Shown here piece after piece: positions 6,194 to 7,986 of a stretch of 64,000 bases of DNA. The stretch comes from Crocinitomicaceae bacterium (GTDB lineage Bacteria > Bacteroidota > Bacteroidia > Flavobacteriales_D > Crocinitomicaceae), in the NCBI GenBank assembly GCA_017984635.1, contig JAGNZC010000005.1, forward strand, positions 1 to 64,000, in the 5' to 3' direction. A program made the translations under genes and the position numbers. The notes beneath the pieces were generated by a model. The model made no database searches, was not told the origin of the DNA, and worked only from the letters and a program-made list of their open reading frames with translations. Within the stretch, counting starts at the first letter, position 1. The number at the start of each line of letters is the position of its first letter.

Positions 6194-7741
6194 TCAGAGT
6201 GTAATTTCCTCGTTATTTTTATTTACAAATGAGTATTGTAATAAGTGATGTGCAGTAACAGCGCGAACTTGTATCCACTTTTTATATTTGAAGAACCATT
6301 TTACTTGTCTTGAAATCAATCCTTTTGTAAAATAGGCTTCTAAATAAGGATGCACTAATAAGCTTACGGATGCTTCTTTTCTATCTGTTAACAGATAATT
6401 CAAATTGGATTCAATTTCTTCAGCCAACAAAATACTTGCTTGTACTTCACCTGTACCGTTACATGTAGGACAAGCTTCAGAAGTTTTAATATCTGTTTCA
6501 GGTCGCACACGTTGACGTGTAATTTCAATAACACCAAATTTTGATGGAGGTAAAATATTATGTTTTGCACGATCGGATTGCATAAATCCTTTCAATGTTT
6601 CAAACAATACTTTATTGTTTTCTCGTTCATGCATATCGATAAAATCGACACAAACAATCCCACCCATATCTCTCAATTGCAATACACGTGCAATTTCTTC
6701 AGCAGCCTCAATATTCGTTGCTAAAGCATTGCTTTCTTGACCATCAGCACCTTTTCGGTTACCACTGTTCACGTCAATTACATGCATTGCTTCGGTGTGT
6801 TCAATAATCAAATATCCACCATTTGAAAGTGGTACTTTTTTACCAAACAATGATTTAATTTGCTTATTAATTGCAAAGCGTTCGAAAATACTGATTTTTC
6901 CATCATACAATTTCAAAATCTTTTCTCTTCCTGGTGCAATACCAGTAACGTATTCTTTCATTTCTCCAAACAATGTTTCATCATTGATATGGATATTTGA
7001 AAAATCTGCATTTAATAAATCACGCAAAATGGAAGAAGTTTTACCAATTTCTCCCAATACTCTTTTTGGAGGTGTTGCAATTTTTAAGTTTGCATACATT
7101 CCTTTCCACTTTTCCATAAGATCTTTAAGATCTTGGTCAAGTTGCTCAATCTTTTTATTTTCTGCGACTGTCCGAATGATCACACCAAAATTCTTTGGTT
7201 TGATACTTTCCATTAAATCTTTTAGACGGTCTCTTTCGTCTTGTTCTTTGATTTTTTGAGATATTGAAATTTTATCTGAAAAAGGAACAAGAACTAAATA
7301 ACGACCTGCTAATGTAATTTCAGCACTCAAACGTGGACCTTTACTAGAAATAGGTTCTTTGGCCACTTGCACTAAAATTGATTGGGAAGATGAAATCACC
7401 TCATCAATCTTACCATCTTTTGGAATATCTTTTTCGCCTTTAAAATAAAGAAGATCGGCTACGTTTTGCTTACCATGAAGCGTGTCTTTGGTGAACTTAT
7501 TGAGTGAACTAAATTGTGGCCCTAAGTCTAAATAATGCAAAAATGCATCTTTATCATAACCAACATCTACAAACGCAGCATTTAAACTTGGAACAACTTT
7601 TCGAACTTTACCAAGGTAGATATCTCCTACTGCAAAGTCATTGTTTCCTTGTTCTTCATGCAATTCAATAAGCTTTCCATCGCGCAACAAAGCAAGCCAG
7701 ATGCCTTCTTTTCGGGCATCAACTACTAGTTCTAAACTCAC
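6194..7741 (-). CDS. rng: Ribonuclease G/E family endoribonuclease
   Basis: 515 residues, the length of RNase G rather than RNase E (no long C-terminal scaffold). An N-terminal S1-like domain with an insertion (about 36-140) precedes the catalytic domain. The Mg-binding aspartates are D323 in VIDVNSG and D366 in CVDFIDM, 43 residues apart as in E. coli RNase E (D303/D346). The Zn-link CPTCNGTG follows near residue 424. It processes rRNA and degrades mRNA with preference for 5'-monophosphate ends. The start is GTG (M-S-L-E-L-V). A terminator-like hairpin sits just upstream, and recX follows after one base. Confidence 0.95.
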   Translation of the reverse strand: MSLELVVDARKEGIWLALLRDGKLIELHEEQGNNDFAVGDIYLGKVRKVVPSLNAAFVDVGYDKDAFLHYLDLGPQFSSLNKFTKDTLHGKQNVADLLYFKGEKDIPKDGKIDEVISSSQSILVQVAKEPISSKGPRLSAEITLAGRYLVLVPFSDKISISQKIKEQDERDRLKDLMESIKPKNFGVIIRTVAENKKIEQLDQDLKDLMEKWKGMYANLKIATPPKRVLGEIGKTSSILRDLLNADFSNIHINDETLFGEMKEYVTGIAPGREKILKLYDGKISIFERFAINKQIKSLFGKKVPLSNGGYLIIEHTEAMHVIDVNSGNRKGADGQESNALATNIEAAEEIARVLQLRDMGGIVCVDFIDMHERENNKVLFETLKGFMQSDRAKHNILPPSKFGVIEITRQRVRPETDIKTSEACPTCNGTGEVQASILLAEEIESNLNYLLTDRKEASVSLLVHPYLEAYFTKGLISRQVKWFFKYKKWIQVRAVTAHHLLQYSFVNKNNEEITL

Positions 7742-7764
7742 GAAAGCCTTTTTTAAAAGTTAAA

Positions 7765-7800
7765 AAACAGAAAAACTTAGCAAGTTATCTTGCTAAGTTT
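7765..7800 (-). terminator. Intrinsic terminator / attenuator hairpin upstream of rng
   Basis: On the minus strand an 11-bp perfect stem (AACTTAGCAAG / CTTGCTAAGTT, 7774-7784 with 7789-7799) and a 4-nt loop are followed by a U-rich run (TTTTTCTGTTTTTT). It lies after the 30-residue gene and about 30 bases before the rng GTG. It would end the small-gene transcript or act as an attenuator in the rng leader. Confidence 0.8.
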
Positions 7801-7820
7801 ATACTATCACGTAACAAATG

Positions 7821-7913
7821 TTACTTTTTCTTTTTATGACGATTTTTTCTTAATCTTTTTTTACGCTTGTGCGTCGCCATTTTATGTCCTTTTCTTTTTT
7901 TACCACTTGGCAT
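7821..7913 (-). CDS. 30-residue highly basic protein (Bacteroidota ribosomal-type small protein)
   Basis: A 31-codon ORF. It starts M-P-S-G-K-K-R-K and ends N-R-H-K-K-K-K; 18 of its 30 residues are Lys or Arg, plus three His, and no acidic residue is present. Such proteins beginning MPSGKKRK and containing a 'MATHKRKKR' core are, from memory, present just upstream of RNase G in many Bacteroidota. The composition is that of a small ribosomal protein; it may be the Bacteroidota-specific large-subunit protein named bL38, but I cannot confirm this. It has its own candidate -7 box at 7987-7994 and a terminator hairpin after it. Confidence 0.8.
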   Translation of the reverse strand: MPSGKKRKGHKMATHKRKKRLRKNRHKKKK

Positions 7914-7986
7914 AATTCTATATTTTATAAGTGTTAATTTCTGTTTTAATCGTTCAGTCAAATGTTAGAAATTCTAAACGGGTCTG

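Follow-up and report, generated by a model that had tools for sequence, protein, structure and literature searches.

A sequence-constrained hairpin between the genes of ribosomal protein bS22 and RNase G in Crocinitomicaceae, a probable limit on RNase G synthesis

In the 64,000-nucleotide stretch of Crocinitomicaceae DNA considered here, called the window in the following, a hairpin stands between the gene of ribosomal protein bS22 and the ribonuclease gene rng, and it probably limits the amount of RNase G that is made. Our preferred reading, to which we assign a probability of about 45%, is that it is a dedicated, sequence-constrained intercistronic RNA element, a leaky terminator in this lineage that would keep rng expression low and that is probably recognised as RNA, with RNase G as the likeliest partner. 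The evidence consists of directly observed features: the anatomy of the hairpin, the synteny, the covariation, the constraint on its sequence, and the absence of a promoter motif between the two genes.

The hairpin occupies positions 7800 to 7773 on the minus strand and has the form AAACTTAGCAAG-ATAA-CTTGCTAAGTTT, that is, the arms AAACTTAGCAAG and CTTGCTAAGTTT form a 12-bp stem without mismatch, closed by the 4-nt loop ATAA. Four of the 12 pairs are GC, which makes it the stable GC-containing stem-loop of an intrinsic terminator. On its 3' side lies the U-rich tail TTCTGTTTTTT (7772–7762), with a U-tract score of 4.14; since scoring starts at the last G-C pair, the U-tract in the window begins at 7775. 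A spacer without promoter motif (7761–7742) leads to the rng GTG at 7741, 31 nt from the stem. A 70-nt region around the hairpin has a minimum free energy of −17.6 kcal/mol and a z score of −3.3, and none of 200 shuffles folds equally well. A preliminary description, made from the letters of the window, had reported a perfect 11-bp stem with a 4-nt loop and a U-rich tail 30 bases before the GTG. The perfect stem, the loop and the tail are all there, while the actual stem length is 12 bp and the distance 31 nt. The fold z score, the covariation in 24 family sequences and a covariance model (see below) confirm that the hairpin is real as described here.

The 30-codon gene upstream of the hairpin (MPSGKKRKGHKMATHKRKKRLRKNRHKKKK; 7913–7821 on the minus strand, reading frame 7913–7824) was identified with phmmer by its matches to PDB chains of solved ribosomes, namely 9i5v (E = 1e-9), 7jil and 8fmw, with E values from 1e-9 to 1.5e-5. 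The gene earlier characterised as basic and of ribosomal type is thus that of bS22, a protein described in the ribosomes of Flavobacterium johnsoniae and Borrelia (PMC10618245). We also looked for bS22 on plasmids and did not find it there. Downstream, rng (7741–6194, minus strand, GTG start) encodes an RNase E/G family ribonuclease (PF10150, E = 3.8e-95; TIGR00757, E = 8.4e-130), and upstream of bS22 lies a gene for an HU-family DNA-binding protein (8330–8040, minus strand; PF00216, E = 1.9e-28). The order on the minus strand, from 5' to 3', is accordingly HU, a TATCTTTG box, bS22, the hairpin, the U-rich tail and rng.

By its named relatives the window belongs to the Crocinitomicaceae, close to Fluviicola. 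A motif search places bS22 immediately 5' of rng in 49 of the first 50 relatives, and in the fiftieth, L029, bS22 is visible as MPSGKKKKRHKMSTHKRKKR. The same adjacency is found in all 80 loci of the named genome collection, and in all class-level (Bacteroidia) loci with a locatable rng start; nine short loci had no rng match and are outside this count. The HU gene is seen upstream of bS22 in many relatives and is absent from view in others, for example L030, L035, L102 and L123. As a side observation, three public bins titled Chitinophaga pinensis, Candidatus Kuenenia stuttgartiensis and Polynucleobacter meluiroseus (L054, L056 and L060) carry rng loci that are clearly of Crocinitomicaceae type (79–85% identity), and their titles look wrong.

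We now turn to the question of whether the hairpin is a terminator or something more. When the entire 64-kb window was scanned for terminators under strict criteria (stem of at least 8 bp, at least 3 GC pairs, U-tract score above 3), 11 sites were returned, the bS22–rng hairpin among them and none inside genes. Nine of the other ten lie just 3' of same-strand genes, and the tenth coincides with one of these nine at a bidirectional site. With its score of 4.14, against 3.45–4.70 for the other terminators of the window, the hairpin has the U-tract of a terminator too, and its terminator grade in the window is supported.

The foremost alternative to our reading, a substantial possibility but the lesser one, is therefore that the hairpin is just the leaky intrinsic terminator of bS22, ending most bS22 transcripts and leaving rng to a constant, unregulated read-through. 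Since the scan is satisfied by the hairpin alone, plain termination explains the anatomy without any partner, and this counts against the explanation that we prefer. The U-tract score stays at 3.7–4.4 in most of the genus, partial terminators are recognised as a class in the transcriptome of a flavobacterium (PMC9723704), and at such a site in rpsB–tsf about one third of transcription reads through (PMC2834685).

What speaks against plain termination is the behaviour of the stem sequence. The controls were terminators that follow three other genes of the window, compared across up to 26 genomes of the genus; this is a limited set, in which two of the three genes are less conserved than rng. 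The controls usually keep the hairpin and the run of U, while the sequence of the stem drifts freely, even after a gene that is 79–99% identical. The lower stem of the bS22–rng hairpin, in contrast, has 86–100% identity to that of the window in 20 of 21 relatives (L031 and L032 being outside this comparison), and 71% in L030, for which the ungapped rng comparison is unreliable. At the fourfold sites of rng, the identity in the same relatives is about 33–63%. The upper stem is variable and covarying, and the constraint on sequence is concentrated in the lower part.

The tail is regularly interrupted (UUUUUCUGUUUU, UUUUUUGUGUUUU, UUUUUCUAUUUU), in contrast to most control U-tracts, and the scores within the family range from 1.6 to 4.4, although stems extended past the core lose part of the U-tract in the score, which lowers the values of, for example, L022, L025 and L055. 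In Brumimicrobium and other genera of the family the hairpin is conserved but the U-tract is poor, and outside the family, of 64 gaps whose stem is perfect, only 10 reach a score of at least 3. What the relatives have in common is a hairpin 3' of bS22 and 5' of rng, not a good U-tract. The controls keep their U-tracts and not their stem sequences. This strengthens the idea of a role beyond termination for the bS22–rng hairpin, which, judged from these sequence comparisons, looks like more than an ordinary terminator. We have also searched for a conserved antiterminator with RNAalifold over an extended region of 14 relatives, and none was found; the calculation gave the main stem, a weak and mostly G-U start-codon hairpin and a small stem in the coding region, none of which competes with the main stem.

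The conservation of the hairpin was examined in an alignment of 24 family sequences. The 12 stem pairs are kept in 98.3% of the cells, a figure biased upward by the choice of rows with a clear stem of this type, and firmer evidence comes from two-sided changes, which are found in 8 of the 12 pairs. None of 500 shuffles reaches any of the observed measures, and structures slid along the alignment pair in only 23–60% of the cells. A covariance model built from the 24 sequences has matches in 131 of 150 family genomes at E < 1 and in about 105 at E < 1e-3. Each of the 30 best matches is located in the bS22–rng gap; many of them are in training genomes, those from outside the model being L213, L214, L216–L221, L224, L225 and L228–L230. 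Across the family the distance from hairpin to start codon is 25–34 nt, and most stems have 11–16 bp. Stem conservation in related genomes was one of the checks on which the preliminary description had staked its proposal, and the proposal survives it, the stem being conserved with strong covariation.

Eleven loci lack this sequence type (L027, L028, L033, L061, L065, L069, L071, L074, L080, L132 and L133), and a hairpin is still found at the same place, weak in the case of L132. Five of them (L027, L028, L061, L069 and L074) represent genera of the family with a different hairpin sequence, and a recognition sequence, if any, is therefore not universal. Outside the family, 87 of 121 bS22–rng gaps fold with z below −2. 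The control for the folding energies is here the shuffled sequences, since the stretch upstream of bS22 carries a hairpin of its own in the family and its energies are not a clean reference. These outside gaps are enriched in TTCTGT (20 against 6.6), CTGTTT (23 against 8.4) and TTCTGTTT (7 against 1.0), counts to which related species do not contribute independently. The wider proposition, that RNase G of Bacteroidota controls its own synthesis through a sequence-recognised RNA element in a ribosomal-protein operon, with sequence-variable structural counterparts at the same place in much of the class, appears rather unlikely to us in this general form.

Other assignments of the element were also considered. 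An Rfam scan gave chance matches only, far under the gathering scores (best E = 0.3). The stem has many G-U pairs, which favours an RNA structure over a DNA-level palindrome for a regulator, and the latter is thus disfavoured. A repeated element or a generic terminator sequence was rejected, as AACTTAG-N-CTAAGTT is found once in the genome. A pairing of the bS22 leader with the U-rich tail, seen in a 286-nt fold of the window, is by eye not kept in L003 or L005. The conservation of the stem sequence could also have another cause, for example pairing with a small RNA.

The structures outside the family bear on a further alternative, in which RNase III or another nuclease would cut the stem in a dicistronic mRNA and thereby split the bS22 and rng messages, as happens upstream of E. 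coli pnp. The rpsO–pnp precedent (PMC2834685), the hairpins without U-tract in much of the class and the perfect stems of 18–21 bp in several Bacteroidales loci (L091, L093, L101, L105 and L106) agree with such a processing site. Most stems of the family, however, have a length that is short for RNase III, and the concentration of the sequence constraint in the lower stem also argues against it, so that we regard this explanation as improbable.

Next, the promoter of rng has to be considered. The −7 consensus of the flavobacterial sigma-A is TAnnTTTG (PMC9723704). A motif scan finds no such box between the bS22 ATG and rng in the window. The nearest one to rng is TATCTTTG (7994–7987, minus strand), 5' of bS22, and, as it has the motif and recurs 5' of bS22 in relatives, it is our candidate −7 box for the bS22–rng unit. 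Between the starts of bS22 and rng, the motif is also absent in 60 of 62 distinct family loci and in 113 of 120 other loci. Since there is no TAnnTTTG box between the two genes, rng probably depends on read-through through bS22. The earlier remark that there is no room for a separate promoter before rng agrees with the 31-nt gap and the missing motif. It is important to distinguish here between the conserved structure and its fixed position upstream of rng, which are seen, and the shared transcript, which is deduced from the absence of the promoter motif.

A promoter of rng of a type not covered by the scan, located inside bS22 or in the gap, with the hairpin merely insulating the two genes, is slightly less probable still than a processing site. 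The scan over the loci covered the TAnnTTTG consensus only, other sigma motifs account for about 7% of the starts in F. psychrophilum (PMC9723704), and the gaps outside the family are long enough for a promoter. Against this stand the short distance from hairpin to GTG in the window, the absence of the common box in 173 of 182 loci and the bS22–rng adjacency in all scored loci. Finally, ribosomal proteins act on their own mRNAs, and bS22, a basic RNA-binding protein whose gene directly precedes the hairpin, might likewise regulate the unit by binding to it. We consider this very improbable, as the element lies 3' of bS22 and not in its leader and is not known to resemble the 16S pocket.

Among 182 loci, 170 have GTG or TTG as the codon aligned to the rng GTG of the window and 7 have ATG; in the remaining 5 the start was wrongly set by the procedure. 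This use of GTG or TTG nearly everywhere in the 182 Bacteroidia loci (7741–7739 in the window) looks as if weak initiation were selected. In the Mucilaginibacter loci L111, L113, L114, L115, L122 and L130, a conserved AAGAAATGGAGTAGC is located directly 5' of the TTG start; it contains ATG-GAG-TAG, a possible two-codon upstream frame.

Returning to the dedicated RNA element that we prefer, the following sequence of events can be proposed. bS22 and rng would form one transcription unit with its promoter upstream of bS22, and the hairpin would separate bS22, a ribosomal gene that is highly expressed, from rng, a ribonuclease gene whose expression has to remain low. In the lineage of the window, the hairpin would act both as a leaky intrinsic terminator and as a stabilising 3' end of the bS22 mRNA, while rng would be carried solely by the read-through transcripts and translated from its weak GTG start. 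The stem sequence and the distance to rng are held more strictly than termination would require, and the hairpin persists in relatives with a poor U-tract. For these reasons, recognition of the element as RNA is probable as well. RNase G, the likeliest partner, may cut the U-rich stretch beside the stem and in this way limit its own mRNA.

Two further hairpins were observed in the same region. At the boundary of rng and recX (6204–6176, minus strand), a 12-bp hairpin pairs the last codons of rng with early codons of recX and has the recX ATG in its loop. The stem is coding, yet it changes in step across relatives (TTACACTC/GAGTGTAA, TTGCACTC/GAGTGCAA, TTACGCTC/GAGCGTAA), and none of 500 shuffles reaches its covariation score. 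The hairpin may serve in translational coupling or mask recX. The second one is found in many relatives (e.g. L012, L016, L058 and L063), in which a terminator-like hairpin with a run of about 8 U comes directly after the promoter box of bS22, in the form TATCTTTG-CACTCCCG..CGGGAGTG-TTTTTTTT. It lies roughly 65–105 nt 5' of the bS22 ATG, its inner pairs change in step by eye, and the window has a weaker form of it (7986–7951, minus strand). The start site is perhaps inside the 5' arm, in which case the hairpin might stop transcripts coming from HU and spare those starting there. The strict box-hairpin pattern occurs at most once per genome among the 40 searched. The same arrangement (ATTTGCACTCCCTTATTCCGAGGGAGTGTTTTTTTT) was also seen in a genome of another family in the order (L240, 1497–1536), before a tRNA-like gene cluster.

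The control of RNase E/G levels in Bacteroidota appears to be undescribed in the searchable literature: in the open-access literature we found neither the bS22–rng unit nor a control of RNase G described for this phylum, which is weak evidence of novelty as subscription papers are mostly outside this coverage. The presence of bS22–rng in every scored Bacteroidia locus, together with the constrained hairpin and the conserved weak start codon, offers a concrete and testable site.

Several known systems can be compared with the bS22–rng unit. A partial terminator between a ribosomal gene and the next gene of the operon is present in E. coli rpsU–T1–dnaG. The E. coli rpsB–attenuator–tsf operon has the same arrangement (PMC2834685). 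In both cases, unlike here, the downstream gene does not encode a nuclease able to act on the element. By analogy, the system that is closest in logic is E. coli rpsO–t1–pnp (S15–PNPase), which likewise consists of a small ribosomal protein gene, a terminator hairpin and a ribonuclease gene, and for which a dicistronic read-through transcript and nuclease processing near the hairpins are described (PMC2834685). The unit of the window differs in that its genes are those of bS22 and an RNase E/G enzyme, that it has no sign of a second promoter like P2, and that its hairpin is conserved in sequence in the family, while an RNase III site is only hypothetical.

The preliminary description had instead drawn a link to the leader hairpins of E. 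coli RNase E. This link is no more than an analogy, for which Rfam gives no kinship, and rpsO–t1–pnp is closer in logic. The E. coli rne 5' UTR reportedly mediates feedback through a stem-loop bound by RNase E (Schuck 2009), and in both systems a structured element precedes the coding sequence of an enzyme of the RNase E/G family. In E. coli, rne is transcribed from a promoter of its own and its 5' UTR is long, whereas the element of the window is intercistronic, without Rfam relation, and its autoregulation is hypothetical. Simple stem-loops, even a terminator, can serve E. coli RNase E as an allosteric site, although the groove residues involved are mostly not kept in gammaproteobacterial RNase G (PMC9841416).

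A U-rich stretch in a structured region 5' of an RNase E gene is also found in Synechocystis. There, RNase E cleaves the 5' UTR of its own mRNA at a U-rich site, and it is reported to bind short hairpins that adjoin AU-rich sites and to cut immediately downstream; premature 3' ends are part of this system, and autoregulation has been proposed (PMC10989929). In Synechocystis, however, the 5' UTR is long and dedicated and the cleavage is demonstrated, while in the window a ribosomal gene lies upstream and the cleavage is hypothetical. If RNase G does act on the element, the feedback of RNase E/G enzymes would extend to a further phylum, with an anatomy unlike that of E. coli and the cyanobacteria.
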